Part shown: positions 5,504 through 30,415 of the stretch, in pieces
How positions within the stretch are numbered: position 1 is the first letter of the stretch
Layout: every line of letters starts with the position of its first letter
Virus record (IMG/VR): IMGVR_UViG_3300044633_000899
Span: 211,306 to 275,305 of that record
DNA: 64,000 nucleotides
Strand: one strand, 5' to 3'
From: a virus
The notes under the pieces: generated by a model
Seen by the model: the letters and a program-made list of their open reading frames with translations, nothing else
What the model was told of the DNA's origin: nothing
Databases searched by the model: none
Position numbers and translations under genes: made by a program

Positions 5504-6802
5504 ATGCCAATTAACGCAAACGGAAAATTAAGAGTTAAAGGTGTTGGACAAATAGGTCCAATATTAACAGACTTTATCTCAGTATGGGATACAACATTAG
5601 GTGATGGAAATCCTTCCATTATACTTCCATTAGTTGCTTCTGGTAACTACAACTTTGATGTAAACTGGGGTGATGGAAACACTGATACAATCACAGCATA
5701 TGATCAAGCAGAAACAACTCACACTTATGCAACAGGAGGAATATACACAATTACAATCACAGGAACAATTGAAGGATGGTCATTTGCTGGTGGTCAAGAT
5801 TATGGAAAATTAACTTCAATCACAAACATCGGACAACTTAAATTAGGAAATGAAGGTGGTGGATTTGCAGGATGTTCAAACTTAACCACAATTGGGGGTA
5901 CATTTGATTTAACAGGAACTACAAATTTTACTAATATGTTTGCGGAGTGTAGCTCATTAATATCAGTAAATGGAATTAGTGGGTGGGATGTTTCTTCAGT
6001 AAATGATATGAGTTATATGTTCTATGGTACATCATTTAACCAATCATTAAATTCGTGGGACACTTCAGCTGTAACAACTATGAGTGGTATGTTTGCTAAT
6101 ACAACATCATTCAACCAACCATTAAATTCATGGAATGTTTCTACTGTAACTGACATGTATTATATGTTTGGTGGTGCAACATCATTCAACCAACCATTAA
6201 ATTCATGGGATACTTCAGCTGTAACTAATATGGAAAGTATGTTTGAAGGTACAACAGCATTTAACCAAGATATTAGTTCATGGGATGTATCTGCTGTAAC
6301 TAATATGGGTTATATGTTCTATGGTACAATATTCAACCAACCATTAAATTCGTGGAACACATCAGCTGTAACTAATATGAATTATATGTTTGGGGATACA
6401 GCAGCATTCAACCAACCATTAAATTCATGGGATGTATCTTCTGTAACCGATATGTCCGATATGTTTGGAGGTGCAACATCATTCAACCAATCATTAAATT
6501 CATGGGATGTATCTTCTGTAACTAATATGAATAGTATGTTTAAGAATGCAACATCATTTAATCAAGATATTAGTGGATGGGATGTATCTGCTGTAACTGA
6601 GATGGGTGGTTTTATGTATGGTAAATCAACAGCAAATTATGATCATTATGATGATCTCCTAAATGCTTGGTCATTGTTAACTCTACAAGGTGATATAAAT
6701 TGGGGTATGGGTACAATTGAATATACTAGTGCCGGGGCTGCTGCTAGAACAAGTATTATTTCAAATTATTCATGGACAATTACTGATGGTGGAGAAATTT
6801 AA
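5504..6802 (+). CDS. BspA-like (DUF285) repeat surface protein
   Basis: The 432-residue product begins with the KLRVKGVGQ tag shared with the end of the preceding gene. It continues with a PKD-like beta domain (about 20-95: [24 protein letters not shown]) and then carries about eight 25-residue repeats of the type [20 protein letters not shown]. This is the BspA/DUF285 repeat common in surface proteins of Bacteroidetes and mycoplasmas. PKD-plus-DUF285 proteins usually act in adhesion. Its place between two terminators in a fiber cluster suggests a virion adhesin, possibly acquired from host surface genes. The start follows an A-rich leader nearly identical to that of the gene before. Confidence 0.8.
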
Positions 6803-6879: not shown

Positions 6880-8064
6880 TTAAAAATACAAATTGGTTTT
6901 AGGGTTATAAACCAATTCACCATTCCCCCCATTAAATAAACCCTCAATTAACATATCATACGTTTTAATAACGTCTTCGTTACTTATATGATATCTTTGT
7001 AAAACCTTATCGTTTCGTTGATTATAACGGTCAATATCAGCGTCATGCTCAACCAATACTTGATTTAATAATTTAGCCGCCTCAACGGTATCAGAACCCT
7101 CATAATAATAACCCAAATCTTTACACATAGGAGCGTTATGTAATACAGGATAACCCAAATAAACAGCGTCCAAATATAAATAATTTAATGGGTTTAATAA
7201 TTGGTGACATATTAATATATCCAAATGTTGTGTTAACATAAATGCTGTTTGATATCTTGATTCAGCACTAATCTTTCCTTCTTTATATAAATCAAAGGTT
7301 TCAATGATTGACATAAATTCCCTATGTTTTGATACGGTGGTAGCATTTGTTATTCTTAATTTTTCAATACGTTTTCTACCTTCAGATGTTCTATATGATT
7401 CTTCAGCAATCATCGCTGGAATTAAACAAAATTTAACAATATTTAAGTTTGGTTCCATAATACCCAAAATCTTTTTTTCTTTGGTATTATCATATTGCCA
7501 ATCCTTTTTATATTTCCCATCTTTAAAACCTTTATGTATTTCAACAACAGATTCGTGTAGATATTTTTCAGACCAAATAAATGGTACTGGTATTGCATTA
7601 ACACGATATAGTGTTTTATATAATCCAGAATTTACCTCGTGTTGTTGTGGTACATACCATACTTCATCATATTGTTTTTCGTATTGGAATTTTTTACTCT
7701 CACTTTGTTTAAATAAAATATTTTCCATATGGATTACATAGTTATTTCCACACTTATAAGATACAACCTTTTTATTTTTTCCAGATTTTTTAAAGGTTTC
7801 AAGTTGATGGTCAAATATTTGGGCACCCATACAAATAATCAAATCCATTTCCATAAAAACATCATTGAAGTAATGTACATCAATATCTGTTAAATAAGAT
7901 GGTTTTTCTGTAAAATCAACATTCGTAGAGTTTAATATGCAGACATCATAATTTTTGGTTGATTTTTTTAATAGTTCAACCAACATCAATACATTTTGTT
8001 TAATACCATTTGTCCAGATGGATTCTTTGTTGTCTTTAAGACCTAATGTAATACCTATTTTCAT
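6880..8064 (-). CDS. DUF2827-like glycosyltransferase
   Basis: The 394-residue protein starts MKIGITLG and contains IWTNGIKQNVLMLVELL, a two-Rossmann-domain layout, and a C-terminal NPLNYLYLDAVYLGYP segment followed by DLGYYYEG. These features match my memory of the DUF2827 family of GT-B-like glycosyltransferases; the assignment is from pattern, without a search. It overlaps the upstream J-domain gene by 4 bases and is probably translationally coupled to it. It could modify host surface glycans, or glycosylate the Thr/Pro-rich virion proteins encoded nearby. No signal peptide is present, so it should act in the cytoplasm. Confidence 0.65.
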   Translation of the reverse strand: MKIGITLGLKDNKESIWTNGIKQNVLMLVELLKKSTKNYDVCILNSTNVDFTEKPSYLTDIDVHYFNDVFMEMDLIICMGAQIFDHQLETFKKSGKNKKVVSYKCGNNYVIHMENILFKQSESKKFQYEKQYDEVWYVPQQHEVNSGLYKTLYRVNAIPVPFIWSEKYLHESVVEIHKGFKDGKYKKDWQYDNTKEKKILGIMEPNLNIVKFCLIPAMIAEESYRTSEGRKRIEKLRITNATTVSKHREFMSIIETFDLYKEGKISAESRYQTAFMLTQHLDILICHQLLNPLNYLYLDAVYLGYPVLHNAPMCKDLGYYYEGSDTVEAAKLLNQVLVEHDADIDRYNQRNDKVLQRYHISNEDVIKTYDMLIEGLFNGGNGELVYNPKTNLYF

Positions 8065-8618
8065 TTTTTATTATGTTTATTTAAAAATTGGTTTATAAGT
8101 TGATCTTTCTTTTCTTGTGTGTCGGAATTTACCCATAACCACAAAAATGAGGTCTCAACTGATTTTAATTGTTTCTTTTTGTCTTCCACAATTTTTTCTA
8201 ATAATGTAATTGTATTAATACTTATTTCAATTTCAATATTTAGTTTTTTTGCGATCTTATATAACACCAACAAATTGTTTTCGTCATATGCAATTTGTGC
8301 TTCATCATATAATTTATTTTTATATTGGTTTGGTGTTTTGTCTGGATGTGATGCTTTTGCTATTGATCTAAAAATATTTTTAATCAACTTCTTATCGTCA
8401 TCGTTAACATCAATGATATTTTTTTGTGAGTTTTTTATATTGTGATTATTTGTTTCACCCGTTGGTGTTTGGGCGACGTATCCGTTATTGGATAACTCTT
8501 CCATAAATGTTGGTGAATGATATGTTGTAAATTCATCAATATAGTCTTTTTCCGAATCTAACAATTTCAATTCTTTAAGTAAAAGGTCTAATTTTAGATT
8601 TTTTAATTTTTCGCTCAC
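8061..8618 (-). CDS. J-domain (DnaJ-like) protein
   Basis: This 185-residue protein is read from the GTG at 8618. Residues about 90-140 hold a J-domain core: KNIFRSIAKASHPDKTPNQ with the HPD tripeptide, followed by an EAQIAYDENNLLVLYKIA helix. J-domains stimulate Hsp70 (DnaK) ATPase. The rest is charged and helical, without zinc-finger or G/F regions, so it would be a specialised co-chaperone. An ATG at 8687 is possible but would run into the divergent gene. The GTG sits exactly 4 bases after TATTTAT, the same geometry as six other genes here, so it is preferred. It may recruit host DnaK for virion assembly or takeover (inference). Confidence 0.7.
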   Translation of the reverse strand: MSEKLKNLKLDLLLKELKLLDSEKDYIDEFTTYHSPTFMEELSNNGYVAQTPTGETNNHNIKNSQKNIIDVNDDDKKLIKNIFRSIAKASHPDKTPNQYKNKLYDEAQIAYDENNLLVLYKIAKKLNIEIEISINTITLLEKIVEDKKKQLKSVETSFLWLWVNSDTQEKKDQLINQFLNKHNKK

Positions 8619-8622
8619 GTAT

Positions 8623-8629
8623 ATAAATA
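8623..8629 (-). promoter_or_regulatory. TATTTAT motif, 4 nt before GTG start
   Basis: On the minus strand TATTTATATAC precedes the GTG at 8618, with a 4-nt spacer identical to that in the paralogue array at 27.9-31.4 kb. It is a putative late-type promoter element. Confidence 0.55.
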
Positions 8630-8644
8630 GTTTAAATCTTGTGA

Positions 8645-8656
8645 TATTTATAAATA
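8645..8656. promoter_or_regulatory. Palindromic TATTTATAAATA, putative promoter
   Basis: This perfect 12-bp palindrome lies 10 bases before the ATG at 8667, between divergent genes, and contains the recurring TATTTAT motif on both strands. Confidence 0.55.
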
Positions 8657-8666
8657 AAAATAGATT

Positions 8667-8864
8667 ATGAAAAATTTTGGTACACATATAACATCTTGGA
8701 TTGCAATACTTTTATTATTGACTGGATCAATATTATACCCATATTGGGTTGTTAAGGGTTATTTAGAAAATTGGTATTTAATTATTTCTGTTTTTATCGC
8801 TTGTTATGGTGGTTTAATTGGAAATATTGTTTGGTATAAAAATTTTATTAAAAACAATAAATGA
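8667..8864 (+). CDS. Small two-helix membrane protein
   Basis: The 65-residue product has two hydrophobic segments (about residues 10-30 and 37-55) with a short positively charged C-terminus (KNFIKNNK). It is probably an inner-membrane protein. The function is not recognised; holin, superinfection-exclusion or signalling roles are all possible, and nothing in the sequence decides among them. It overlaps the next membrane-protein gene by 4 bases, so the two are likely co-translated. Confidence 0.6.
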   Translation: MKNFGTHITSWIAILLLLTGSILYPYWVVKGYLENWYLIISVFIACYGGLIGNIVWYKNFIKNNK

Positions 8865-9244
8865 TATATCTCGGTTTTTTATTGTTCATACTATCGGGGA
8901 TGTTTGAGGCGGTAATGGATAAGTTACAATTTCATTATGATTTGTCTATATTTAAAAATTTTAAAAATCAATTGTTCTGGAATCCAGATGTTTCCTGGAA
9001 GAATAAGTATGAGGATGGTGATCCAATGAAAGGTGAACGATTTTTTTTATCAAAATCATTATTTGTTGGTTTTACTGACGCTTGGCATTTATTTAAGTTA
9101 TTTAGAACCTTAACAATATTCGCCGGTATTTATTTTCTATTTATCCCTTGTGCTACCAAATATATGTGTTTAATGTTTGTTATTATCGCTAGAATTTTGT
9201 TTGGTCTTTCTTTTACTTTGTTTTTTAAATTATTTGAAGATTAA
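8861..9244 (+). CDS. Membrane protein of unknown function
   Basis: This 127-residue protein has an N-terminal hydrophobic stretch (IYLGFLLFILSGMF), a soluble charged middle with several aromatic residues (LFWNPDVSWKNKYEDGD), and two C-terminal hydrophobic helices (about 85-122). It overlaps the preceding small membrane protein and probably works with it. I do not recognise the family. Confidence 0.55.
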   Translation: MIYLGFLLFILSGMFEAVMDKLQFHYDLSIFKNFKNQLFWNPDVSWKNKYEDGDPMKGERFFLSKSLFVGFTDAWHLFKLFRTLTIFAGIYFLFIPCATKYMCLMFVIIARILFGLSFTLFFKLFED

Positions 9245-9257
9245 TAGTCTTTTGTTG

Positions 9258-9266
9258 TATTTATAA
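9258..9266 (+). promoter_or_regulatory. TATTTATAA motif, putative promoter
   Basis: TATTTATAA lies 14 nt (counted from the end of TATTTAT) before the ATG at 9279. This is the spacing class seen in front of plus-strand structural genes. Confidence 0.6.
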
Positions 9267-9278
9267 GATAAAACGTAG

Positions 9279-10067
9279 ATGAGTCAATTAATAACAATAA
9301 ATAGTGTATCATATGATGGTGAATTGGCAACAATTTTATTTAAACCAGACAATTCAAATGATGTTATTAATTTTGGTGTTGTTACATTACCGTTTGTATT
9401 TAATTCGGGTTTATTAACACCCCCAAGGGATGTTTATGGTAGTTATACAATATTGGTTGATGGTTCAGATTGTTCAAAAATTATGAATGTACCTAGACCA
9501 ACACCCACACCAACACCAACGGTAACACCCACTCGGACTGTTACCCCAACACCTACGACAACACCGACACCAACACCAACAAACGATCCGTGTCCAACAA
9601 AGACACCGACACCAACACCGACCTCAACACCACAACCAACAAGAACCCCCACAAGGACACCAACACCGACACCAACGTCAAGTCCGTGTAAAACACCTAC
9701 GCCAACACCGACACCAACAACAAGTTTGTTGCCGTCATCGTCTGGTATTTATTTTGGTAAATTTAGTGGTTCAACAATAACAAGTGGTAATGTGTCAACG
9801 TTTACTTTTGTTTTAACAAACAACCCGACAAATTCATATGTTACATTTCAAACTGGAAGTGCGTATGGATATATTTTAATACCAATATCATTATCACAAC
9901 CAACAGGATTTAGAGATAGTGATGCTGGTTGTAGTGGATTTAATATACCAATAAATAATATTGGGACAATAATTATAATAGACGGAAATGGTTTCCCAAT
10001 AACATATAATATATATAGAACATTCTATCCATTCTTTGGTGATACAGATTGTTGGTTATGTAATTAA
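9279..10067 (+). CDS. Virion protein with Pro-Thr linker (PTPTPT)
   Basis: The 262-residue protein has an N-terminal beta-rich domain (about 1-72), a linker of about 80 residues made almost only of Pro and Thr with Cys-containing breaks (NDPCPTK, SSPCKT), and a C-terminal beta domain (about 155-262) with three further Cys (AGCSGF, TDCWLC). The linker repeats PTPTPTPT and is mucin-like, so it should be extended and could be O-glycosylated. Similar linkers occur in the protein ending at 15893 and in the tail sheath. It is likely a fiber or decoration protein; function is inferred from composition and position. Confidence 0.65.
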
Positions 10068-10076
10068 AAAATAGAT

Positions 10077-11480
10077 ATGATGAGTTTTTCTTTTTCTGGT
10101 GGAGTTGAGGTGTATGGTTTTATATCACCAACCGATATTACAGATGAATATCCGGTAATAGATCCACTATATGGTATTGACGGATTTAGAAACGTTAACA
10201 CATTATCTGATTTAAATTCAATACCAAATCTAAGAAGACGTGCGGGTATGGTCGTCGGAGTTAGTGGTGGTACTACGTATTACAAACTAAACCCCTCTCC
10301 TTGGAATGGTTCAATTTCAGATTGGTCTCTATTTCAAACTGGTGGTGGTAGTGGTGCGTTTACTGGTGGAACCGTAACTGGTGATACAATTTTCACACAA
10401 GGTGTTACAGCGACAACATTAAACGTTAATGGTATTAACATTACTGGTGATACATATGTTACTGGGGGTACTTACTATACTGGTGGTACTATTGTGTTTG
10501 ATTATAACACAATTGGTAATTTTCCTGTAACAGGTTTAACCGAAGATCTTAACAACGCAATTGCCGGACTTGCTGAGACCGATGAATTGACAATTGAGTT
10601 AGACGTTTTAACAAATAAAATAAGATTAAAAGATATTGTCGCAGCAGGTAGTGGTGGTACTAGAACGTTTCAAGGTGATATTGTTGTTGATGGTTTATTA
10701 AACATAAACACAATTGGTTCTGGAATACCTATAATTAATTTAGGTTTAGATAATACAAATCAAGTTGTAACTGGTGCTACAGATCAAATTGTAACGATAA
10801 CTGGGGGTACAAATATAGAAATTAATGGGTCTTATCCAAATTTCGGTATTGATTATACTGGTCAAACAACATTTGATTATTTACCAATAAGTGGTGGTAC
10901 TGTAACTGGTGATACAATATTTACAAGTGGTTTAACTGCAACAACATTAAATGTAAACGGTATTATCATTACTGGTGATACATATGTTACTGGTGGAACA
11001 TATTACACTGGTGGTACAATTATTTTTGACTATAACACAGGGGGTGATTTTCCTGTATCAGGTTTAACTGAAGATCTTAATATCGCAATCGCTGGTCTTG
11101 CCGAAACCGATGAACTAACAATTGAGTTAGATATTACAACAAATAAAATAAGATTAAAGGATGTTGTTGCACCAGGTAGTGGTAACACAAGAACTTTTCA
11201 AGGTGACATTATTATTGAGAGTGGATTAACGGCAACAACAGCATTTATTATATACACACAATGGACGTTGGATTTTATGGATTCATTGGATCTTGAGATT
11301 TACGCACCTAACGATATTTCAATTGATAGTATTATTAATTTGGTTAATAGTCCAACAACAACAATATTAGTTAATAATTTACCATACACACCAACAACAT
11401 TAATTACTAGTGGTGATAAAATTAATGTAACAACCGATATTAACTCGGTTATTCAATTTAATATAACAAACTATTTATAA
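10077..11480 (+). CDS. Tail fiber protein with duplicated GDT modules
   Basis: The 467-residue protein has two copies of a module: first GGTVTGDTIFT, TLNVNGI and TGDTYVTGGTYYTGGTI, then GLAETDELTIELD with RTFQGDI. The copies start near nt 10363 and 10885. Such modules are typical of beta-structured phage fiber shafts. The C-terminal 75 residues (WTLDFMDSLDLEIY, ITSGDKINVTTDINSV) form a domain that recurs at the end of the next gene. ATG codons at 10077 and 10080 are both possible starts. It begins a run of closely spaced or overlapping structural genes that continues to 12697. Confidence 0.7.
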   Translation: MMSFSFSGGVEVYGFISPTDITDEYPVIDPLYGIDGFRNVNTLSDLNSIPNLRRRAGMVVGVSGGTTYYKLNPSPWNGSISDWSLFQTGGGSGAFTGGTVTGDTIFTQGVTATTLNVNGINITGDTYVTGGTYYTGGTIVFDYNTIGNFPVTGLTEDLNNAIAGLAETDELTIELDVLTNKIRLKDIVAAGSGGTRTFQGDIVVDGLLNINTIGSGIPIINLGLDNTNQVVTGATDQIVTITGGTNIEINGSYPNFGIDYTGQTTFDYLPISGGTVTGDTIFTSGLTATTLNVNGIIITGDTYVTGGTYYTGGTIIFDYNTGGDFPVSGLTEDLNIAIAGLAETDELTIELDITTNKIRLKDVVAPGSGNTRTFQGDIIIESGLTATTAFIIYTQWTLDFMDSLDLEIYAPNDISIDSIINLVNSPTTTILVNNLPYTPTTLITSGDKINVTTDINSVIQFNITNYL

Positions 11481-11483
11481 TAT

Positions 11484-12278
11484 ATGTCAACAAGAACAAT
11501 ACATTGGACGGAGGATACTAAAACGATGAAAATAAGGACAGATGTTCCGGGTTTTTTTATTGAGTTTGGACAACAAATGGTGATTAGAGTTAAAAATGAT
11601 ACAGAAAATTTAATCCCACCTAGTACTGTTGTTTATTTAAATGGGTCTCAAACATTCCCCACTTTGGAAATCGCCGATTACTCTTCCTATCTAACATCTG
11701 AAGGAACGTTAGGATTTGTTGCACATAATATGAATGGTAATACCGATGGTTACGTTGTAACAAAAGGGATCTTGAGAAATGTTGATTTAAGTGATTTTTC
11801 AGATGGTAATGAAATTTACTTGTATACAGGTGGAACATTTACGACAACTAAACCAATTGCGCCACTTCCAGAGGTTTACCTTGGAACTGTAATTAAATCT
11901 GGTGTTAATGGTATTTTAAATGTTGATATTAATCTTGGTTTTGAACTTGAAGAATTGCATAACATAAAAATAACCAACCCAACTAATGGTGATGTATTAA
12001 CTTGGGACACCGATGAGTCTGTTTGGACAAATAAAACTGTCGGTAGTGTTAGTGGTAGTACTAGTTGGACAATAGATTTTATGGACTCAAATAGTATTGA
12101 TATTTATACCACAACAAATTTTAGAATCACATCAATTAACAATATTAAAAACACACCAATTATTAATATTTTAGTTAATGATAATAATTATACATTAGAC
12201 CAACAAATATCAAGTGGTGATAAAATCACAATAACATCGGATATAAATTCGGTTGTATTATTAAACATAGAGGAATAA
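11484..12278 (+). CDS. Structural protein, fiber-associated
   Basis: The 264-residue protein has a unique beta-rich N-terminal part (about 1-160: GQQMVIRVKNDTENLIPPS, NEIYLYTGGTFTTTKP), the kind of domain found in some phage capsid/tail decoration proteins. A C-terminal domain (about 190-264: WTIDFMDSNSIDIY, ISSGDKITITSDINSVV) is homologous to the end of the preceding protein. It lies 3 bases after that gene and overlaps the next by one base (TAATG), so all three are probably expressed together as parts of one appendage. Confidence 0.55.
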   Translation: MSTRTIHWTEDTKTMKIRTDVPGFFIEFGQQMVIRVKNDTENLIPPSTVVYLNGSQTFPTLEIADYSSYLTSEGTLGFVAHNMNGNTDGYVVTKGILRNVDLSDFSDGNEIYLYTGGTFTTTKPIAPLPEVYLGTVIKSGVNGILNVDINLGFELEELHNIKITNPTNGDVLTWDTDESVWTNKTVGSVSGSTSWTIDFMDSNSIDIYTTTNFRITSINNIKNTPIINILVNDNNYTLDQQISSGDKITITSDINSVVLLNIEE

Positions 12279-12697
12279 TGAATAATTTATATTTTAAAGC
12301 AAAACCACAAGTTACACCTTTTACTGGGGGTACAATCGCAAATTTAACGGTAACCGGTAATACAATTGTTGATGGATTAACAGCCAACACACTAAATGTT
12401 AACGGTATTAATATTACTGGTGATACGTATGTTACTGGTGGGACATATAATTTTACTGGAGACACATTAATATTAGAAAGAAATGATGGTAATAATGTAC
12501 CAATAACTGGATTTACATATGAAAGACAAAGTGATTATGTTTATCCGTATCATTATTCAGGTACAGCACCACTATATACCTTAACTTCAACATCAAATTG
12601 GATAATAAAAAGAGTTAATTTTACAACACCAGGTTCACCAATAACTCAATCTGCTATTGGTTCATGGGATAATAGATATACATTAACATATTCATAA
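12278..12697 (+). CDS. Short fiber-like protein
   Basis: The 139-residue product carries one copy of the fiber module (TPFTGGTIANLTVTGN, TLNVNGINITGDTYVTGG) followed by a C-terminal beta domain with many aromatic residues (YERQSDYVYPYHYSG). It looks like a truncated relative of the proteins at 10077 and 19371. Its start overlaps the previous stop by one base. Confidence 0.55.
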   Translation: MNNLYFKAKPQVTPFTGGTIANLTVTGNTIVDGLTANTLNVNGINITGDTYVTGGTYNFTGDTLILERNDGNNVPITGFTYERQSDYVYPYHYSGTAPLYTLTSTSNWIIKRVNFTTPGSPITQSAIGSWDNRYTLTYS

Positions 12698-12710
12698 AAA
12701 ATAAAATAAA

Positions 12711-12893
12711 ATGGAAAGAAAATTTAGTTTTGTAATAAATTGTACTGACGGTGATAATTATGCACTTGTTATGTCGTGTTGGAAATTAGATGAGGATGGG
12801 AATCGTCTTGACCGACAATCTGAAACCAAAACACAAATCAGTTTAGAAAACTGTTTTATTGAACAAAAAATATTCGTTGACAAATGGCTTTAA
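12711..12893 (+). CDS. Small conserved protein, first of duplicated pair
   Basis: This 60-residue soluble protein (MERKFSFVINCTD...) is close to the product of 14030-14212. It overlaps the following beta-helix gene by 10 bases, an arrangement exactly repeated in the second copy. The invariant pairing suggests a dedicated partner or chaperone for that protein (inference). No known family is recognised. Confidence 0.6.
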   Translation: MERKFSFVINCTDGDNYALVMSCWKLDEDGNRLDRQSETKTQISLENCFIEQKIFVDKWL

Positions 12894-14002
12894 AATATCC
12901 CTTAGCGAGTGGAGTATGGTCTAATGCTCTTAACTGGAATGGTGGTACAGTACCTATTGCTGGTGATGATGTAAGGGCAAATGGTTTTACAGTCACAATA
13001 GATGTAGATATAAATGTATTACAGATATCTAATAATCAATTATTGCCAGCTGCTGCTAATGGTTCTTTTGTTGTTAGTACAAATAGAACTTTGACTTGTG
13101 ATATTATTGCTGGGGGTGTTACTTGTTTATCATCAACAGTTGGTAATACGGTAAATATTATTGGTAATATATCTCAAGGTTCTTCCTTTGGTGTATTTGG
13201 AGTATATTTTACTAATGCGGGTTCTATCTTAAATGTAACAGGAAATATTGTTGCACCATCGGGAGGTGGTGGTTCACCATGTAGTTTAAATTCAAGTGGT
13301 AGAGTTAACTTTGTTGGTAATGCAAATGCGGGTCCAGGTACTCCTAGTAATGGTGTTGCTATTAATATAACAGCAAGTGGTATTTTAACATTTACTGGAA
13401 ATGCTACAGGGGGTGGTTCAACGGCTGGTTCTTTTGGGATTTTGTGTGTTGGTAACTCAACGTTAAATGGAACTATAAATGGTGGTACTAACGCCCTTTC
13501 ATTTGGTGTTAGGTTAACTGGTGGTGTTCATACCGTAAATTCCGATTGTTTTGGTGGTGGTGTCGCTGGTTCAAATGCTTGTGTCGTATCAACATCTACC
13601 GCAACATTTAACGGTAATATATTTGGTTCAACATCATCAACATCTTTTGGTTTACAAGTTCTTGACACAGCATCAAATGTTGTAATTTCAACAATGACAT
13701 TCAGTACAAATGGTGGTTCACCAGTTAATGGATTCGTTAAGTTTAAGAACACAGCGCCAACAATTACAGTAAGAAAACAAAATAACACAAATCAAACACT
13801 TGTTGATCCCTCAACAACTGATATTCCAGTAATTGGTGATGTTAGAGACGGAGTAAGTTATGCAAGTGGGTCATTAACTGGTACTTTGAAAGTACCTTCA
13901 CCTCTAAATGTTGCTCTTGGAGTACCTACTGATAACACAGTAGGCTCTGCGGTTATTACAGTTGGTGATATGGGTACGTTATTAGCGTCATTTCAAATAT
14001 AA
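12884..14002 (+). CDS. Beta-helix-like surface protein, copy 1
   Basis: The 372-residue protein begins with WSNALNWNGGTVPIAGDDV, an N-terminal motif common in large bacterial surface beta-helix proteins. It continues with Gly/Asn/Thr-rich repeats of the form TFTGNATGG, SGRVNFVGN and ATFNGNIFGS that should form a right-handed beta-solenoid. The C-terminal 80 residues (VRKQNNTNQTLVDPSTTDI through TVGSAVITVGDMG) are nearly identical to those of copy 2. It is likely an adhesin or fiber tip. The solenoid part differs more between copies than the ends do. Confidence 0.65.
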   Translation: MALKYPLASGVWSNALNWNGGTVPIAGDDVRANGFTVTIDVDINVLQISNNQLLPAAANGSFVVSTNRTLTCDIIAGGVTCLSSTVGNTVNIIGNISQGSSFGVFGVYFTNAGSILNVTGNIVAPSGGGGSPCSLNSSGRVNFVGNANAGPGTPSNGVAINITASGILTFTGNATGGGSTAGSFGILCVGNSTLNGTINGGTNALSFGVRLTGGVHTVNSDCFGGGVAGSNACVVSTSTATFNGNIFGSTSSTSFGLQVLDTASNVVISTMTFSTNGGSPVNGFVKFKNTAPTITVRKQNNTNQTLVDPSTTDIPVIGDVRDGVSYASGSLTGTLKVPSPLNVALGVPTDNTVGSAVITVGDMGTLLASFQI

Positions 14003-14029
14003 AAATAAAATTAATACATATAAAATAAA

Positions 14030-14212
14030 ATGGAAAGAAAATTTAGTTTTGTAATTAACTGCACGGATGTTGACAATTACGCTTTAGTATGTTCAAGTTG
14101 GAAATTAGATAATGAGGGAAACCGAATTGACCAACAATCTGAAACCAAAACACAAATTAGTCTTGAAGAGACATTTATTGAACAAAAAATATTTACAGAA
14201 AAATGGCTTTAA
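14030..14212 (+). CDS. Small conserved protein, second of duplicated pair
   Basis: The 60-residue paralogue of the product of 12711-12893 has the same length and the same start and end (MERKFSFVINCTD, FIEQKIF..KWL). It overlaps the following gene by 10 bases. Substitutions are spread through the centre. The function is unknown, but it is tied to the downstream beta-helix protein. Confidence 0.6.
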   Translation: MERKFSFVINCTDVDNYALVCSSWKLDNEGNRIDQQSETKTQISLEETFIEQKIFTEKWL

Positions 14213-15387
14213 AATATCCTTTAGCAAATGGTGTATGGTCTAACGCTGCAAATTGGAATGGTGGAACTTTACCAGTTCCTGGTGACGATGTAAGGGCTAA
14301 TGGTTTTACCGTTACAATTGACGTTGATATAGATGTTTTACAAATTGCCACCGTCGCATTAGCACCCGCTGTTGCTGGTGGTACATTTACTGTGAGTACT
14401 AATCGTAATATAACAGCCAACATTAATGCTGGAAGTAGTAGTTGTTTAACATCAGCGAGTGGTGTCATTGTAAATGTTATTGGTAACATAAATGCTGGTA
14501 GTGGGAATGTAATACATGGTATAAATTTTACTAATGCGGGTTCTATATTAAATGTAACAGGAAACGTTACCGCTGGTAGTTCTGTAAATAATCAGTCTGG
14601 AATTAATTCATCTGGTACTGTTAACTTTATTGGAAACGCTACAGGTTCTGCTGTTGGTTTTGGTTCTTCAGCAATTAATATAGGTACAAGTGGAATATTA
14701 AATTTTACAGGAACCGCTACAGGTGGAAATGCTGGTAATACATCTTACGCTATTTTAACTGCTGGTAATGGTACATATAATGGAACTATAACTGGTGGTG
14801 GTGCTGGAGGTTCAGTTGGTGTTAGAATAACTGCTGGTGTTCATACTATTAATTCTGATTGTTTTGGTGGTACTGGTGCCCTTTCACATGGTGTTCAAAT
14901 GTTAACATCTACAGCAACATTCAACGGTAATATATTTGCTGGTAGTGTTACTAATTCACAAGCCGTTTTAATATCAACATCTACCGCAACATTTAATGGT
15001 AATATATTTGGTTCAACATCATCATTATCTTTAGGTCTTAGTGTGTCTGATACCGCATCAAATGTTGTTATTTCAACGATGACACTCAGTACAAATGGTG
15101 GTTTACCAGTTAATGGATTCGTTAAGTTTAAAAATACAGCACCTACAATTACGGTAAGAAAAGCAAACAATACAAACCAAACACTTGTTGACCCCTCAAC
15201 AACTGATATACCAGTAATTGGTGATGTTAGAGATGGTATAGTTTACGCAAGCGGCTCATTAACAGGAACATTAAAAGTTCCACCAGTCAATGCTGTAAGT
15301 GTGGGTGTTCCAAATGATAATACGGTAGGTACTGCGGTTATTGATATAAATGATATGGGAGCATTACTGGCTAGTTATGTTGCGTGA
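14203..15387 (+). CDS. Beta-helix-like surface protein, copy 2
   Basis: The 394-residue paralogue of the protein at 12884 shares the head (WSNAANWNGGTLPVPGDDV) and the almost identical tail, while its solenoid repeats differ (NAGSGNVIHGINFTNAGS, ATFNGNIFAGSV, ATFNGNIFGSTS). Having two related but diverged solenoids suggests two receptor-binding variants (inference). Its stop overlaps the ATG of the following gene by one base. Confidence 0.65.
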   Translation: MALKYPLANGVWSNAANWNGGTLPVPGDDVRANGFTVTIDVDIDVLQIATVALAPAVAGGTFTVSTNRNITANINAGSSSCLTSASGVIVNVIGNINAGSGNVIHGINFTNAGSILNVTGNVTAGSSVNNQSGINSSGTVNFIGNATGSAVGFGSSAINIGTSGILNFTGTATGGNAGNTSYAILTAGNGTYNGTITGGGAGGSVGVRITAGVHTINSDCFGGTGALSHGVQMLTSTATFNGNIFAGSVTNSQAVLISTSTATFNGNIFGSTSSLSLGLSVSDTASNVVISTMTLSTNGGLPVNGFVKFKNTAPTITVRKANNTNQTLVDPSTTDIPVIGDVRDGIVYASGSLTGTLKVPPVNAVSVGVPNDNTVGTAVIDINDMGALLASYVA

Positions 15388-15893
15388 TGATGATAACGAT
15401 AACAGGATCAACAGGAATAGGACCATACCAAGTTCAAGTTTGTGATATAACAAACACAACTTGTATTATTGTAACTGGTTCAACAACAATACCCCCCAGT
15501 TTTACATTTGATGTTCCATCACCATTAGATGGTGTGTCGTCATTGTTAGTTAAAATTATTGATTCAAATGGGTGTGAGGTGTTCCAAGTTTATTCTTGTC
15601 CCCCAACACCGACACCAACACCAAGTGTTACCCCCACACCTACCCCAACACCTACAAACTTATGTTATTGTATCACAGTTCAAAACAGTGGTGTTACAGA
15701 TGGTTATTTTGATTATGTTGATTGTAATAGTAATCAACAAACAAATGTTTTAGTTCAAGGTGGTGTAACGTATTATACTTGTGGTGTCAATCCTACAAAT
15801 GAAATAAATGTTATAACAACTGTTGGTGGTTTATGTGATTCAAACCAATCTTGTCCGACACCAACTTGTACACCAACACCATCAACAACTTAA
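15387..15893 (+). CDS. Small Cys-rich virion protein with PTPTPT linker
   Basis: The product has about 168 residues. An N-terminal beta domain of about 70 residues carries Cys pairs (QVCDITNTTC, NGCEVF). It is followed by the linker [20 protein letters not shown], a second small domain (CYCITVQNSGV, YTCGVNPTNE) and a short Cys/Pro/Thr tail. This parallels the architecture of the protein at 9279. The start may be GTG 15384, ATG 15387 or ATG 15390; ATG 15387 overlaps the upstream TGA by one base and is preferred. It is likely a fiber accessory protein. Confidence 0.55.
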   Translation: MMITITGSTGIGPYQVQVCDITNTTCIIVTGSTTIPPSFTFDVPSPLDGVSSLLVKIIDSNGCEVFQVYSCPPTPTPTPSVTPTPTPTPTNLCYCITVQNSGVTDGYFDYVDCNSNQQTNVLVQGGVTYYTCGVNPTNEINVITTVGGLCDSNQSCPTPTCTPTPSTT

Positions 15894-15936
15894 TTATTCA
15901 CAAACAAATATTATTTTTTATATTTTAAAATAAAAA

Positions 15937-17181
15937 ATGTCAACAATATTTGTTCAGATAGCATCGTATAGAGATCCCCAACTTAAAATAACAGTTGAGG
16001 ATATGATTAATCAATCAAAACACCCAGAAAATTTACGTATTGGTATTTGTAATCAGTATTCACCAGATGATGAATTTAACATTGACCAATATCAAGATGA
16101 CCCAAGGTTTAGAATTGATAATGTTCTTTATACCGAATCAAAAGGTGTTTGTTGGGCTCGTCATATGGTACAACAAAGGTATAGTGGTGAAACGTATACG
16201 TTACAGATTGATTCACATATGCGTTTTGAGAAAAACTGGGATGAGGAATTAATTAATATGATTGTTGGTTTACAAAACAAAGGTGTTAAAAAACCATTGT
16301 TAACTGGTTATGTATCATCTTTTGATCCAGATAATGACCCAAAGGGTAGAGTTGTGGATCCGTGGAGAATGGTATTTGATAGATTCACACCAGAGGGTTG
16401 TGTTTTCTTTTTACCAGAAGTTATTCCAAACTGGAAGGAATTAAAAGAACCAATACCCGCAAGATTTTATTCGGCACATTTTTGTTTTACATTAGGTAAA
16501 TTTTCAGAGGAAGTTCAACACGATTCGGAATACTACTTTCACGGTGAGGAGATTTCAATTGCGGTTAGAGCGTTTACTTATGGGTATGATTTATACCATC
16601 CGCATAAAGTTTTGGTTTGGCATGAATATCTCAGATCTAACAGAGTAAAATGTTGGGATGATGATAAGGTGTGGTACAAAAAGAATGACGCGTCACACAA
16701 AAGAAATAGAGAATTATTTGGTATTGATGGTGAAAAGTTTTCTGGTGATACGTCACAATATTTTGGTACAGAAAGAACTTTAAGTGATTATGAAAAATAC
16801 GCGGGAATTTTATTTGAGAAACGTGCGGTACAACAATATACATTAGACAAACAATATCCACCAAATCCATATAATTTCAATAATGATGATGAATGGAAAA
16901 ATTCTTTTTTAAGAATATTTAAACATTGTATTGATTTATCTTTTGATCTTGTTAAAGAAACCGATTATGATTTTTGGGTTGTTGCGTTTCATAATGAAAA
17001 AGACGAAACATTATTTAGACAAGACGCACAAACGGATGAGATTAATAGAATGATGAAAGATAAAGATGGGTATTGTAAAATTTGGAGAGAATTTAATGCA
17101 ACAGAAAAACCTAAATATTGGGTGGTTTGGCCACATAGTACATCAAAAGGTTGGTGCGATAGAATAACAGGAAATTTATGA
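15937..17181 (+). CDS. GlcNAc-transferase-like glycosyltransferase
   Basis: The 414-residue protein has a GT-A fold signature: FVQIASYRDPQL at the N-terminus, then KGVCWARHMVQQRYSGE and LQIDSHMRFEKNWDEELI, where DSH stands for the metal-binding DxD-type motif. Together they match the GlcNAc family (PF11397), whose members transfer N-acetylglucosamine to hydroxylated Pro/Thr/Ser residues in eukaryotic Skp1-like targets. Distal motifs YFHGEEISIAVRAFTYGYD and HPHKVLVWHEY are also typical. It overlaps the next glycosyltransferase by 4 bases. Lying next to a gene for a Pro-Thr-linker virion protein, it may glycosylate that class of proteins (inference). Confidence 0.75.
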   Translation: MSTIFVQIASYRDPQLKITVEDMINQSKHPENLRIGICNQYSPDDEFNIDQYQDDPRFRIDNVLYTESKGVCWARHMVQQRYSGETYTLQIDSHMRFEKNWDEELINMIVGLQNKGVKKPLLTGYVSSFDPDNDPKGRVVDPWRMVFDRFTPEGCVFFLPEVIPNWKELKEPIPARFYSAHFCFTLGKFSEEVQHDSEYYFHGEEISIAVRAFTYGYDLYHPHKVLVWHEYLRSNRVKCWDDDKVWYKKNDASHKRNRELFGIDGEKFSGDTSQYFGTERTLSDYEKYAGILFEKRAVQQYTLDKQYPPNPYNFNNDDEWKNSFLRIFKHCIDLSFDLVKETDYDFWVVAFHNEKDETLFRQDAQTDEINRMMKDKDGYCKIWREFNATEKPKYWVVWPHSTSKGWCDRITGNL

Positions 17182-18836
17182 TCACATTAGTAACAGGTTT
17201 ATGGGATATAGGTAGAGGTGAGTTATCAGAAGGTTGGTCTCGTTCATACGAACATTACCTTGATAAGTTTTCACAATTATTAAAAGTGGAAAATGATATG
17301 ATAATCTTTGGTGATCACAAATTAAAAGAATTTGTTTTCCAACACAGAGAAGAATATAACACACAATTTATTTTAAGAGAATTATCTTGGTTTAAAAATA
17401 ATGAATTTTACGACCCCATCCAAAGAATAAGAACAAACCCTTCTTGGTATAATCAGGTTGGTTGGTTAAAGGATTCCACTCAAGCAAAACTTGAGATGTA
17501 TAACCCGTTGGTTATGTCAAAAATGTTTTTATTAAATGACGCAAAACTTTTGGATAAATTTAATTCTGATCGTTTATTTTGGGTTGACGCGGGAATAACA
17601 AACACCGTTAACCCAGGATATTTTACACACGATAAAGTTTTAGATAAAATATCATTTGATAAGTTTACATTTGTGTGTTTCCCATATGATGCGAATACGG
17701 AAGTTCACGGGTTTGATTATAAAAAAATGTGTGAGTTATCTGGTACTAAAACCAAAGTTGTTGCTCGTGGTGGATTTTTTGGTGGTGACAAGGATTCAAT
17801 ATCACAGATGAATGTTTTGTATTATAATTTATTGGTTGAAACATTGAACTCTGGGTATATGGGTACTGAAGAATCGTTATTTACAATTCTTTTATATCAA
17901 CACCCTTCACTTATTGATTATTGTGAAATTGAATCAAATGGGTTGGTGTTTAAATTTTTTGAGGATTTAAAGAATGATAAGGTTGTTTTGAAAAATGAAG
18001 GGAAGAAGATTGTTCCAAACCATAATGGGGATGTTGGTTTATATGTAATTACATTTAATTCACCAAAACAATTTGAGACATTAATAAAATCAATGTTGGA
18101 TTATGATCCGAACTTTATTCATAAAACAAAAAAGTTTTTGCTTGATAACTCAACAGATTTAACTACAACACCAAGATATAGAGAATTATGTGATGAATAT
18201 GATTTTATTCATATTAAAAAGAATAACATCGGAATAACGGGTGGAAGAGTTTTTATTGCGGAACATTTTAACGACCAAGAAAACCTATCACATTATTATT
18301 TTTTTGAGGATGATATGGAATTTTATAGTGGGAAAGATGTTACTTGTAAAAATGGATTTGTGAGAAATATTGATAATTTATTTGATAAGTCAATTGAGAT
18401 TATTAAAAAAGAAAACTTTGATTATTTGAAGTTAAACTTCACCGAGTTCTATGGATCACACAACAAACAGTGGTCTTGGTATAATGTAAGTCAGGAATTT
18501 AGGGAAAAACATTGGCCAAATAATCCGAAACTTCCAAAACAAGGTCTTGATCCATATTCTCCAAATCTTGAATTTAAACATATCAAATCACATAAAGGAC
18601 TGGCGTATGTTTCTGGTGAAATCTATTTATCCAATTGGCCAATAGTAATGACAAAAGAAGGAAACTATAATTGTTATATTAAAACAAAATTCCAACACCC
18701 ATATGAACAGGTCCTAATGTCACATTGTTATCAAGAAACAATCAAAGGAAATATTAAACCAGGATTACTTCTTGCAACACCAACGGAACACCACCGATTT
18801 GATTTCTATGAAGGTTCATTAAGAAAAGAATATTAA
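17178..18836 (+). CDS. Two-domain glycosyltransferase (HtrL/YibB-like plus GT-A)
   Basis: The 552-residue protein looks like a fusion. Residues about 1-285 (TLVTGLWDIGRGELS, NPLVMSKMFLL, RLFWVDAGITN, YMGTEESLFTIL) resemble the HtrL/YibB family of putative glycosyltransferases. Residues about 290-552 (GLYVITFNSPKQFETLIKSM, FFEDDMEFYSG with an EDD metal motif, and the TPTEHHRFDFYEGS tail) form a GT2-like GT-A domain. It overlaps the preceding GlcNAc-transferase-like gene by 4 bases, so a sequential pathway adding two or three sugars is plausible. There is no signal peptide. Family calls are from motifs alone. Confidence 0.65.
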   Translation: MITLVTGLWDIGRGELSEGWSRSYEHYLDKFSQLLKVENDMIIFGDHKLKEFVFQHREEYNTQFILRELSWFKNNEFYDPIQRIRTNPSWYNQVGWLKDSTQAKLEMYNPLVMSKMFLLNDAKLLDKFNSDRLFWVDAGITNTVNPGYFTHDKVLDKISFDKFTFVCFPYDANTEVHGFDYKKMCELSGTKTKVVARGGFFGGDKDSISQMNVLYYNLLVETLNSGYMGTEESLFTILLYQHPSLIDYCEIESNGLVFKFFEDLKNDKVVLKNEGKKIVPNHNGDVGLYVITFNSPKQFETLIKSMLDYDPNFIHKTKKFLLDNSTDLTTTPRYRELCDEYDFIHIKKNNIGITGGRVFIAEHFNDQENLSHYYFFEDDMEFYSGKDVTCKNGFVRNIDNLFDKSIEIIKKENFDYLKLNFTEFYGSHNKQWSWYNVSQEFREKHWPNNPKLPKQGLDPYSPNLEFKHIKSHKGLAYVSGEIYLSNWPIVMTKEGNYNCYIKTKFQHPYEQVLMSHCYQETIKGNIKPGLLLATPTEHHRFDFYEGSLRKEY

Positions 18837-18891: not shown

Positions 18892-19356
18892 ATGGAGTGG
18901 TTCATAAAAAAAGGTGCGACATTACCCTTGTTAAAATTGTCGGTTGTGAAAGACGGTCGCAGCGACTATAATAATTTTATGGATTTTATTGAGGAATCGT
19001 CAATCTTTTTTTCAATGGTTGACCTTGAAACTGGTATTCCAAAAATTATGACGAAACCAGCGGGGTTTGTTAAGAAAGATCTTATGGATCCAAACGCACC
19101 AACAGAATATTATATTTATTACCAATTCACATCACAAGATACAAAAAAAACTGGAAGATATGAAGGTCAGTTTTTATTTAGAAATGAAGAAGGTACATTA
19201 ATTCTACCAATTAGAGATCGGTTATTTATTAACATACAAGAAAGTTTTATCGCCGATGATTTACCATATGAGAGTTGTTACGTATCAGAATTTCCTTGTT
19301 GTGTTAAAACACCAATCATTCCAATAACAACAACCACAACAACAATAATCTTTTAA
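18892..19356 (+). CDS. Baseplate/fiber-attachment-like small protein
   Basis: The 154-residue product begins with a beta-sandwich-like domain (FIKKGATLPLLKLSVVKDGR, FFSMVDLETGIPKI, RYEGQFLFRNEEGTLILPI). It is reminiscent of N-terminal domains of phage upper-baseplate proteins that anchor fibers. It ends in two Cys (FPCC, ESC) and a Thr-rich tail (ITTTTTTIIF). It precedes the YadA-like fiber gene by 14 bases, so it could connect that fiber to the baseplate. This is a weak family inference. Confidence 0.45.
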   Translation: MEWFIKKGATLPLLKLSVVKDGRSDYNNFMDFIEESSIFFSMVDLETGIPKIMTKPAGFVKKDLMDPNAPTEYYIYYQFTSQDTKKTGRYEGQFLFRNEEGTLILPIRDRLFINIQESFIADDLPYESCYVSEFPCCVKTPIIPITTTTTTIIF

Positions 19357-19370
19357 ATTAAAAATAAATT

Positions 19371-21554
19371 ATGTCAAATTCACCATTACCAATATCACTT
19401 TTACCAAACGCACAATCAAATGAATTAACACCAACTGACCTTTTGGTTGTTGTTAACTATGATGTACCGTCTGGTACAACAAAAAACATCACGACCAATG
19501 ATTTTAAAACATATATCACATCAGGAATTACTGGATCTTTTACTGGTGGTACTGTAAGTGGGTCAACAGAATTTACAGACGGGTTAACCGCTAATACACT
19601 AAATGTTAATGGTGTTAACATTACTGGTGACACTTACGTAACTGGTGGGACTTATGTAACTGGTGGGACAATTATTTTTGATTATAACACGGGTAGTAAT
19701 TTTGAAGTTAGTGGTTTAACAGAAGATCTTAATAATACAATCGCTGGACTCGCAGAAGCCGATGAAGAAACAATAGAACTTAATTTAACAACAAATAAAA
19801 TCCAACTAAAAGAAATTGTTGCTGAAGCGACTGGTGGGACAAGAACATTCCAGGGTAATTTCGCAATAAGTGGTGGTACATTGAATTTAGACACAATTGG
19901 ATCTGGGTCACCCATTATTAATTTGGGGTTAGATTCAAGTGGTGAAGTTGTAACAGGAACAACAGGTCAGGCTGTGACAATAACTGGCGGAACAAATATT
20001 GAAATTGTTGGTTCATATCCAGATTTTGGTGTTAATTTTACTGGTGATACATTTACAGGATTAACCGTTGGTGTGACACAAATAACATCAGGAACATCTG
20101 GATCTATATTGTTTGAGGGTAGTGGAAACGTTTTACAAGAAAGTACAAGTTTAGTTTGGGACAATACGAATTCAACATTAGGTATTGGTGCTTCACCGTC
20201 AAGTGCAACAACGCTTGACGTTAGATCAAAAGATGTTTTAACAACATCAATACCGTTTAGAGTTAGAAATAACGCAAACACAGTGAATTTCTTAACCGTT
20301 AACAACTATGGTGAAGTATTTAGTAATGGTTTAGTTGGTACAACATCAAATACATTTTTTGGTGAAGGTAATGGTAGAAGTATCACAACTGGAGGTAGTA
20401 ACACCTCGTTTGGGTATAATACATTTTTTTCAAATAACACAGGTGCTGGAAATAGTGTTTTTGGGACTAGTAGTTTATTAAATAATCTTAGTGGTAGCTT
20501 CAATTCCGCATTTGGGTCAAACGCATTACAAGTTAACATTATTGGTGATAATAACTCTGCATTTGGTTCAAATGCTTTATTAAATAATACAAACAGTGAT
20601 AATTCCGCATTTGGTTTTGACGCATTAAAAAATAATACAACTGGTCAAAAAAATACTGCGGTTGGTCAGGGTAGTTTAGTTGCAAACATTTCAGGTATTA
20701 ATAATACCGCCGTGGGTGCTAACTCACTACAAAGTAACACTACAGGTATTGAGAACATTTCAGTTGGTAGAAATAGTTTGTTTTCAAATATAACAGGTAG
20801 TAGTAATACTTCCGTTGGTGTAAGTTCATTAGCACACATTACAATTGGTAGTAATAATATTGCATTAGGTAATGATGCTGGTAGGCGAAAATCAAATAGT
20901 AGTAATTTAGGTGATACCACAAGTTCAATTTTTATTGGTGTTGATACAAAGGCAAGTGGTGAAAGTCAAACTAACCAAATTGTAATTGGACATAATGCCG
21001 TCGGGTTAGGTAGTAACACAACAGTTATCGGTAATACATCAACAACATTATTTAGACCATACGGAAATGTTTTGGTTGACGGAGCATTAAGTGTAACAAC
21101 AATCTCAGCAACAACATATCAAAACTTACCAGTTAGTGGTTTAACAGAAGGATCAAACATAAGTTTAACAAACAATAGTGGAAACTATACTGTGGCCGTT
21201 ACTGGTATTACAAACCCAATCAATAGTTATTTTAGTGCTGGTAGTGGAACAACAGTAAACTGGGATGTTTCGGGTCAAAGTACCAATTACGAAATTACTT
21301 TAACTGGTACAACAACATTAAATTTAACAAACGTTAGAAATGGTGATTTCGGAACTATCATAATTAGACAAGACGGTGTTGGTGGAAGGACATTAACTTT
21401 GGGAACAATAAATGGACCATTAGGAACACATATAGTTGCGAATGGTGGTGGTGGTTCTATAATATTAACATCAAATGCTAGTGCTATTGATGTTCTAACA
21501 TTCACATATAATGGTTCAATAATGTTTTGGACAGTTGGAAATGATTACACCTAA
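19371..21554 (+). CDS. Fiber with YadA-like head repeats
   Basis: The 727-residue protein starts with an attachment segment (SLLPNAQSNELTPTDLLVVV). It then has a GDT fiber module (about 55-105) and the GLAEADEETIEL/RTFQGNF module shared with other fibers here. Residues about 320-530 carry 14-15-residue repeats of the form NSAFGSNALLNNT and NTAVGQGSLVANI, the left-handed beta-roll motif of trimeric autotransporter (YadA) heads. A final beta domain contains LTLTGTTTLNLTNVRNG. Such proteins are trimeric and bind host surfaces. It is very likely a receptor-binding tail fiber. Confidence 0.75.
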   Translation: MSNSPLPISLLPNAQSNELTPTDLLVVVNYDVPSGTTKNITTNDFKTYITSGITGSFTGGTVSGSTEFTDGLTANTLNVNGVNITGDTYVTGGTYVTGGTIIFDYNTGSNFEVSGLTEDLNNTIAGLAEADEETIELNLTTNKIQLKEIVAEATGGTRTFQGNFAISGGTLNLDTIGSGSPIINLGLDSSGEVVTGTTGQAVTITGGTNIEIVGSYPDFGVNFTGDTFTGLTVGVTQITSGTSGSILFEGSGNVLQESTSLVWDNTNSTLGIGASPSSATTLDVRSKDVLTTSIPFRVRNNANTVNFLTVNNYGEVFSNGLVGTTSNTFFGEGNGRSITTGGSNTSFGYNTFFSNNTGAGNSVFGTSSLLNNLSGSFNSAFGSNALQVNIIGDNNSAFGSNALLNNTNSDNSAFGFDALKNNTTGQKNTAVGQGSLVANISGINNTAVGANSLQSNTTGIENISVGRNSLFSNITGSSNTSVGVSSLAHITIGSNNIALGNDAGRRKSNSSNLGDTTSSIFIGVDTKASGESQTNQIVIGHNAVGLGSNTTVIGNTSTTLFRPYGNVLVDGALSVTTISATTYQNLPVSGLTEGSNISLTNNSGNYTVAVTGITNPINSYFSAGSGTTVNWDVSGQSTNYEITLTGTTTLNLTNVRNGDFGTIIIRQDGVGGRTLTLGTINGPLGTHIVANGGGGSIILTSNASAIDVLTFTYNGSIMFWTVGNDYT

Positions 21555-27895: not shown

Positions 27896-27899
27896 ATTG

Positions 27900-27906
27900 A
27901 TAAATA
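27900..27906 (-). promoter_or_regulatory. TATTTAT motif, 4 nt before ATG
   Basis: Minus strand TATTTATCAATATG: the motif ends 4 nt before the start at 27895. An identical context precedes four of the five other array genes or a close variant of it. Confidence 0.6.
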
Positions 27907-27916
27907 TTCTATTTTT

Positions 27917-28366: not shown

Positions 28367-28370
28367 ATTG

Positions 28371-28377
28371 ATAAATA
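28371..28377 (-). promoter_or_regulatory. TATTTAT motif, 4 nt before ATG
   Basis: Minus strand TATTTATCAATATG before the start at 28366, the same geometry as the other array genes. Confidence 0.6.
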
Positions 28378-28402
28378 TTCTAATTTTTTTAAATTGTAGA
28401 TA

Positions 28403-28852: not shown

Positions 28853-28856
28853 ATTG

Positions 28857-28863
28857 ATAAATA
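28857..28863 (-). promoter_or_regulatory. TATTTAT motif, 4 nt before ATG
   Basis: Minus strand TATTTATCAATATG before the start at 28852. Confidence 0.6.
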
Positions 28864-28887
28864 TTCTAATTTTTTAAATTGTAGACC

Positions 28888-30411: not shown

Positions 30412-30415
30412 AATT

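Follow-up and report, generated by a model that had tools for sequence, protein, structure and literature searches.

A predicted mucin-type O-glycosylation cassette beside threonine- and proline-rich virion linkers in a contractile-tailed phage

We analysed a 64,000-nucleotide stretch of viral DNA (hereafter the window), which corresponds to positions 211306-275305 of the 296,330-base IMG/VR virus record IMGVR_UViG_3300044633_000899. Next to genes for proteins with threonine/proline (T/P)-rich linkers, the window encodes a GT60-type glycosyltransferase and a tandem GT-A enzyme that we refer to as HtrL2. We propose, with a probability of roughly 0.8, that these two enzymes form a mucin-type O-glycosylation cassette that the phage carries for the T/P linkers of its own virion. 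The case is built on gene content and order, a catalytic motif, protein fold, conservation, co-occurrence, adjacency and gene fusion, all observed here.

Glycosylation of phage virions is known by experiment mainly from mycobacteriophages, and glycosyltransferase genes of phages are usually read as modifiers of DNA or of the O-antigen. The mucin-type mechanism has so far—to our knowledge—been described in eukaryotes. A literature search found no paper joining phage, GT60 and mucin-type glycosylation. An earlier reading of the window (the original prediction) had proposed self-glycosylation, with enzymes of the phage acting on its T/P-rich proteins; the genes that it listed are confirmed as open reading frames (ORFs), its linkers are where it placed them, and its proposal is supported by GT60-free relatives, adjacency shuffles, AlphaFold models with Foldseek searches, partnership and fusion of the enzymes in cellular genomes, and the glycoproteins of phage XacN1. 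The genes at the centre of the proposal are as follows.

15937-17181, + strand: GT60-type polypeptide N-acetylhexosamine (HexNAc) transferase (PF11397), proposed initiator (Pfam, motif residues, model)
17178-18836, + strand: tandem GT-A enzyme HtrL2, proposed elongating enzyme (Pfam, conserved residues, model)
15384-15893, + strand: T/P-linker protein, proposed acceptor, ending 43 nt before the GT60 gene (T/P/S-dense stretch)
9279-10067, + strand: T/P-linker protein, proposed acceptor, with a (PT)n stretch of ~78 residues at ~9495-9728
36682-40005, + strand: tail sheath protein with an inserted TTTTTTLPPTPTPTPDPCNPTPTTTTTTTT linker, proposed acceptor (Phage_sheath_1C)
18892-19356, + strand: 154-amino-acid protein ending ...ITTTTTTIIF, 55 nt past HtrL2
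35352-36281, - strand: putative accessory glycosyltransferase, displaced cassette member (synteny)

The GT60-type enzyme

The product of 15937-17181 matches PF11397, ‘Glycosyltransferase (GlcNAc)’ (GlcNAc, N-acetylglucosamine), with an E value of 5.5e-68 and 230 bits against a curated cut-off of 21, and the glycosyltransferase family phrog_24687 with an E value of 1e-158. Enzymes of GT27 and GT60 have DxH instead of DxD, and the two families form one group, that of the polypeptide Ser/Thr transferases (PMC7185993). The phage enzyme has this replacement as D92-S93-H94, which is invariant in alignment set A1; together with H202-G-E-E205 and H229, it is kept in at least 97% of 91 GT60 relatives, and protein identity across diverse relatives is ~70%. 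Because searches of solved structures by sequence, with either the protein or its profile, returned nothing meaningful, a fold search was needed. The AlphaFold model, a confident one (predicted local distance difference test (pLDDT) score of 91), has a GT-A fold like that of polypeptide HexNAc-transferases, and its top 20 PDB matches in Foldseek were all polypeptide N-acetylgalactosamine (GalNAc) transferases (E values of 7e-11 to 1e-9).

These GT27 enzymes, which initiate mucin glycosylation in animals, have the best fold matches, the DxH motif and T/P-rich acceptors in common with the phage system, but identity is only ~11-16%, the sugar of the phage enzyme is probably GlcNAc and no ricin-type lectin domain was identified in it. 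The members of CAZy family GT60, Trypanosoma cruzi TcOGNT-2 and Dictyostelium Gnt2, share PF11397 and DxH with the phage enzyme, are likewise expected to have no lectin domain and use threonine-rich acceptors with T runs or P/T repeats; the T. cruzi and Dictyostelium enzymes put alpha-GlcNAc on threonine of mucin-like domains, and the peptide used to assay the T. cruzi activity was KPPTTTTTTTTKPP (PMC3769586, PMC8724618). This peptide is strikingly like the sheath insert TTTTTTLPPTPTPTPDPCNPTPTTTTTTTT. The phage enzyme differs from its protist relatives in an extra C-terminal region of ~100 residues; moreover, these relatives modify secreted mucins within the Golgi, whereas the phage enzyme would act in the bacterial cytoplasm on virion proteins. 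The suggestion that the family acts on hydroxy-amino-acid targets can be narrowed: the relevant precedent is mucin-type alpha-GlcNAc–Thr initiation, with the hydroxyproline of Skp1 as a second option.

T/P linkers

We defined T/P/S-dense stretches (S, serine) as those with at least 60% of these residues in 20 amino acids. Just three ORFs of the window contain them (9279-10067, 15384-15893 and, for the sheath, 36682-40005), which bears out the mucin-like linkers originally reported for the fibre cluster and sheath. In the pieces of the record that were read, 7 of 362 ORFs have T/P-dense stretches, one of them (207347-210379) lying a short way upstream of the window. The codon motif for (PT)3 is found 11 times in the window, compared with 0.00 in dinucleotide-preserving shuffles. 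Mixed codons encode a constant (PT)n peptide, and as DNA the array matches by only 57%; what is conserved is therefore the protein sequence, and the repeat is no DNA microsatellite.

The sheath assignment (Pfam Phage_sheath_1C, E value of 1.1e-8) identifies the source as a contractile-tailed phage and makes this protein the one certain virion protein among the three proposed acceptors. Its TTTTTTLPPTPTPTPDPCNPTPTTTTTTTT linker lies at residues ~288-318 (nucleotides ~37543-37635), and the protein also has pure T runs. In the fibre cluster, the gene order is T/P protein, GT60, HtrL2, the protein ending ITTTTTTIIF and a fibre-like gene. Genes related to 15384-15893 are directly upstream of GT60 in many loci, and the single-linkage neighbour cluster of 18892-19356 spans 82 of 98 GT60 loci, many of its members having T or T/P runs.

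HtrL2 and the accessory gene

The HtrL2 gene overlaps the GT60 gene by 4 nt. The N-terminal half of its product is HtrL_YibB (Pfam E value of 2e-20), but it scores 75.7 bits against the equivalog cut-off of 264.9 for TIGR02192; HtrL2 is a distant YibB relative with an added second domain rather than YibB itself. The second, GT-A-like half, recognized from the model, carries a conserved E377-D-D-M380. The model has two GT-A domains with a pLDDT of 88 and a predicted template modelling score (pTM) of 0.57, which leaves their arrangement uncertain. It resembles LH3, LARGE1, ColGalT1 and bacterial chondroitin polymerase; most of these matches have two domains, and several assemble protein-linked glycans. 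A sequence search of solved structures gave chance matches only.

The product of 35352-36281 was originally called a fourth glycosyltransferase. The gene is indeed there and has relatives in 21 other loci (29-57% identity), in all 21 of which it lies between GT60 and HtrL2, so that it can be regarded as a displaced cassette member; because it has no match in Pfam or NCBIfam, its glycosyltransferase label rests on synteny.

Conservation and co-occurrence in viral contigs

A scan of IMG/VR found 532 stretches that encode a GT60 relative. Among the best 80 of these loci, HtrL2 is present in 77, usually followed by a DNA polymerase gene. Other cassette neighbours vary by phage but are enzymes that decorate glycans: GT9, GT10 fucosyltransferase, CmcI-type and other methyltransferases, a sulfotransferase with adenosine 5′-phosphosulfate (APS) kinase and, in XacN1, a carbamoyltransferase. 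A constant initiator with variable decorators is, we infer, what a protein glycosylation pathway should look like. One close relative of the window phage has sulfotransferase and APS kinase genes near its cassette (L005, 2319-3595), which suggests sulfated glycans in that phage.

The glycosyltransferase genes are associated with virion protein genes. A T/P gene is the immediate same-strand neighbour of the GT60–HtrL2 block in 35 of 46 testable loci, compared with a mean of 18.5 and a maximum of 30 in 5,000 gene-order shuffles. All 24 large cassette-bearing contigs have (PT)3, and PF11397 was found in 11 of 50 sampled contigs that were chosen only by a (PT)5 motif. Control sampling was anchored on the DNA polymerase. 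In large contigs of a sister clade (L097-type polymerase), GT60 is present in 0 of 25 and (PT)3 in 1 of 25, and T/P genes number 0 of 1,011 at loci of this clade versus 129 of 1,472 at GT60 loci.

A second polymerase clade (L111-type) was considered as a possible contradiction. Its seven GT60-positive contigs all carry linker motifs (26-50 each), and 13 further contigs have (PT)n but no GT60. In all seven of the former, GT60 sits 55.6-62.9 kb downstream of the polymerase; by coordinate arithmetic, 11 of the 13 GT60-less contigs end before that position, and the other two (G036 and G117) are borderline, reaching 57-60 kb. The apparent contradiction thus goes back to truncated contigs. Unfiltered Fisher tests, which ignore relatedness, gave 10/0 versus 17/34 (p = 9e-5) and, for contigs of at least 100 kb, 5/0 versus 3/22 (p = 4e-4).

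Cultured phages

The cassette is present in three cultured jumbo phages, XacN1, RAS14 and CM1, which have 31, 11 and 11 linker motifs, respectively. Among phages without a detectable GT60, RaK2, Atu_ph07, CBB, 121Q, GAP32 and Bellamy have no motif and SCTP-2 has one. Identity between XacN1 and the window phage is 48% for GT60 and 41% for HtrL2, compared with 23-26% in short segments for the polymerases. As the two enzymes are far more alike than the polymerases, the cassette and the linkers travel together across diverged phages, and their common history is not just that of the phages carrying them. In the regions read, XacN1 linkers occur in at least 13 proteins, including ones encoded beside the sheath and sheath-stabilizer genes. 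XacN1 ORF334 is the GT60 gene and ORF330 the HtrL2 gene, and T/P linkers are encoded by ORF325, ORF350, ORF369-372 and ORF232-237.

In 2018, at least two glycoproteins were reported from proteomics of XacN1, with the suggestion that enzymes of the phage itself produce them (PMC5852040). Like the window phage, XacN1 has orthologues of both enzymes and T/P linkers; the portion of that paper available to us lists two glycosyltransferases (ORF328 and ORF334) and mentions neither T/P linkers, nor the mucin family, nor the HtrL2 partner.

Cellular relatives

The same partnership occurs in bacteria. On a 1.3-Mb contig of a Jiulongibacter sediminis isolate, GT60, a carbamoyltransferase and a fusion of an FkbM methyltransferase with HtrL2 adjoin a T/P-rich protein. 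This chromosomal region (L500, 5948-13151), in which two GT60 genes, the carbamoyltransferase gene and the FkbM–HtrL2 fusion surround one T/P-rich protein, is a candidate island for mucin-type glycosylation in bacteria. A Saprospiraceae bin has GT60 and HtrL2 beside a T/P-rich protein that carries a type-IX secretion tail, and a sulfotransferase gene lies on the far side of that protein. Two Burkholderiales bins (L548, 6207-11228; L557, 2468-7483) encode one protein of ~1,670 amino acids that joins HtrL2 to two GT60 domains; the one that was scanned reads HtrL2–GT60–MT–GT60–MT (MT, methyltransferase) over 1,673 amino acids, and the fusion protein adjoins a protein with TTTT runs. Two marine-type contigs (L502 and L508) pair GT60 with another partner (Gly_transf_sug in L502), and here, too, T/P-rich proteins lie on the flanks. 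At GT60 loci in cellular bins, T/P genes number 4 of 78 with HtrL2 versus 5 of 698 without it, which indicates that the GT60–HtrL2 pair, more than GT60 alone, goes with T/P proteins.

Proposed mechanism

In the host cytoplasm, GT60 would take HexNAc, by family probably alpha-GlcNAc, from a uridine diphosphate (UDP)-sugar and attach it to threonine residues of the disordered linkers, of (TP)n or T-run type, in the fibre-cluster proteins and the tail sheath. Co-translated HtrL2 would extend this first sugar, and accessory enzymes would decorate the glycan: here perhaps the product of 35352-36281 and, in relatives, a varying set that includes GT9, GT10 fucosyltransferase and carbamoyl-, methyl- and sulfotransferases. 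Dense glycans on flexible virion linkers could provide spacing, protease resistance, shielding or altered binding. We infer the acceptor residues, the identity of the sugar, the order of the steps and the benefit.

Phage enzymes that act on the phage's own virion have a precedent: mycobacteriophage glycosyltransferases modify the capsid and tail proteins of the phages that encode them (Freeman et al. 2023, cited in PMC12619734). According to the citing report, that modification is at the C termini of capsid and tail tube subunits, whereas the window phage has a GT60-type initiator and T/P linkers. The same report describes Moraphages, large aquatic phages with four core glycosyltransferase groups, and mentions virion glycosylation as an option; unlike our proposal for the window phage, it puts forward no acceptor or mechanism (PMC12619734).

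Several points weigh against a virion-directed cassette. The linker glycans and glycosites are predictions, and the 9279-10067 and 15384-15893 products are presumed from their context to be virion proteins. Fold similarity to the GalNAc-transferases is moderate, with template modelling (TM) scores of ~0.5 over the query and 0.64 of the target for a catalytic-domain chain. The XacN1 glycoproteins are not named in the text of that paper that we could consult (PMC5852040), and XacN1 also has a GT9 enzyme (ORF328). Of the 50 contigs chosen by (PT)5, 39 have no GT60, fragments and unrelated high-GC viruses included. The sister clade has one clear exception to co-occurrence, G143 (the contig of L474), in which nine (PT)3 motifs lie in one place (67278-67504) in a GT60-free contig. 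The co-occurrence contrasts, finally, represent few independent events, not hundreds.

Alternative explanations

The best-surviving alternative, which we nonetheless consider unlikely, is that the enzymes modify host surface glycans—lipopolysaccharide (LPS), O-antigen or capsule—for superinfection exclusion, and that the cassette is placed with the fibre genes since both concern adsorption. The HtrL_YibB and GT9 families do occur in LPS contexts, a survey of jumbo phages reads cyanophage glycosyltransferase clusters as surface polysaccharide systems (PMC7824862), and Synechococcus phage Bellamy has a cluster of glycosyltransferase, epimerase and carbamoyltransferase genes. But Bellamy, with its surface-polysaccharide-type cluster, has no (PT)3 motif, and the cassette described here is strictly paired with T/P proteins, a pairing that recurs, along with fusion, in bacteria. 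The precedent for GT60 is protein threonine or hydroxyproline, and NAD-epimerase PF01370, the sole nucleotide-sugar biosynthesis family tested, has no match in the 296-kb record, unlike what an LPS cluster would lead one to expect.

Slightly less probable again is that the T/P linkers are plain flexible spacers that co-occur with the cassette through shared ancestry or ecology. Linkers with (PT)n but no detected GT60 exist, the sequences are structured by clade and the independent contrasts are few; yet jumbo phages from fresh water, jumbo phages of Xanthomonadaceae, the L502 and L508 contigs and bacterial chromosomes all show the association, accompanied by adjacency and fusion.

We give very little credence to a Skp1-like route, in which linker prolines would be hydroxylated before GT60 adds GlcNAc to hydroxyproline. 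The linkers are proline-rich and the enzyme that initiates on Skp1 belongs, as a relative, to the same pp-alpha-GlcNAcT group (PMC8724618), but T outnumbers P in the linkers (7,373 T and 4,617 P), the sheath has pure T runs and the record has no match to prolyl-hydroxylase PF13640, the one family searched (a host enzyme or other oxygenases are possible). Glycosylation of phage DNA, for which phage glycosyltransferases are best known and with which a PF00303 thymidylate-synthase-family protein would fit, is the least credible, as the fold and motif match polypeptide transferases, the cassette is beside fibres and its link to T/P proteins is also found in bacteria.

Genomic setting

The record has a GC content of ~30%. 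Other genes near the cassette are as follows.

6880-8064, - strand: DUF2827 protein, a neighbour unlinked to the T/P trait (Pfam E value of 2e-101)
19371-21554, + strand: fibre/virion-protein-like gene downstream of the cassette, itself lacking a T/P linker (matches to PHROGs families of virion structural and tail spike proteins)
22972-25911, + strand: DNA polymerase, the usual downstream neighbour of the cassette

Of the three glycosyltransferases that had been placed in the fibre cluster, GT60 and HtrL2 hold up by Pfam and model. We exclude the DUF2827 protein from the system because its gene is on the strand opposite to the cassette and is also found in large phage contigs (102-232 kb) with neither GT60 nor (PT)3.

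The fibre cluster further encodes a large leucine-rich repeat (LRR) protein (2770-5469, +; Pfam LRR_4 and LRR_8) and a DUF285/BspA-like repeat protein (5504-6802, +), both of families typical of bacterial surface proteins. An 850-amino-acid, coiled-coil-like protein (118-2670, +) is built of 29-residue repeats of the type ...SAEVSNRTADVDAEESRA... (87-bp DNA repeat). Proteins of ~149 amino acids that begin ‘MKIIISESQYK...’ form a tandem family with a 486-bp repeat (28888-30411 and 27449-31366, both -); by eye, one copy appears to be fused to a superoxide-dismutase-like region and a metallopeptidase-like N terminus. At 59863-61053 and 59358-60029 (both +) are a probable cytosine-C5 DNA methyltransferase (PCQS motif) and an HNH-like gene that overlaps its start region.

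Implications

With the GT60 family present in more than 500 viral contigs, the proposal offers a mucin-type mechanism with an acceptor code, the T/P linkers, that is predictable from sequence. Hundreds of uncultured phages share the trait with a handful of cultured phages and some bacteria, and the prediction can be tested in many of the large uncultured phages as well as in the cultured phages XacN1, RAS14 and CM1. Such a cassette would let bacteria make mucin-like glycoproteins by a soluble pathway in the cytoplasm, with a bearing on the evolution of mucin-type glycosylation, phage stability, immune recognition and host binding. More tentatively, and at somewhat short of even odds, GT60 and HtrL2 may constitute a mobile prokaryotic module for mucin-type O-glycosylation, shared by phages and bacteria and of common ancestry with the mucin pathway of protists and animals, with the (TP)n/T-run linker as its substrate code. 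If so, any protein of a virion or a cell surface that gained linkers and module together would become coated with glycans.

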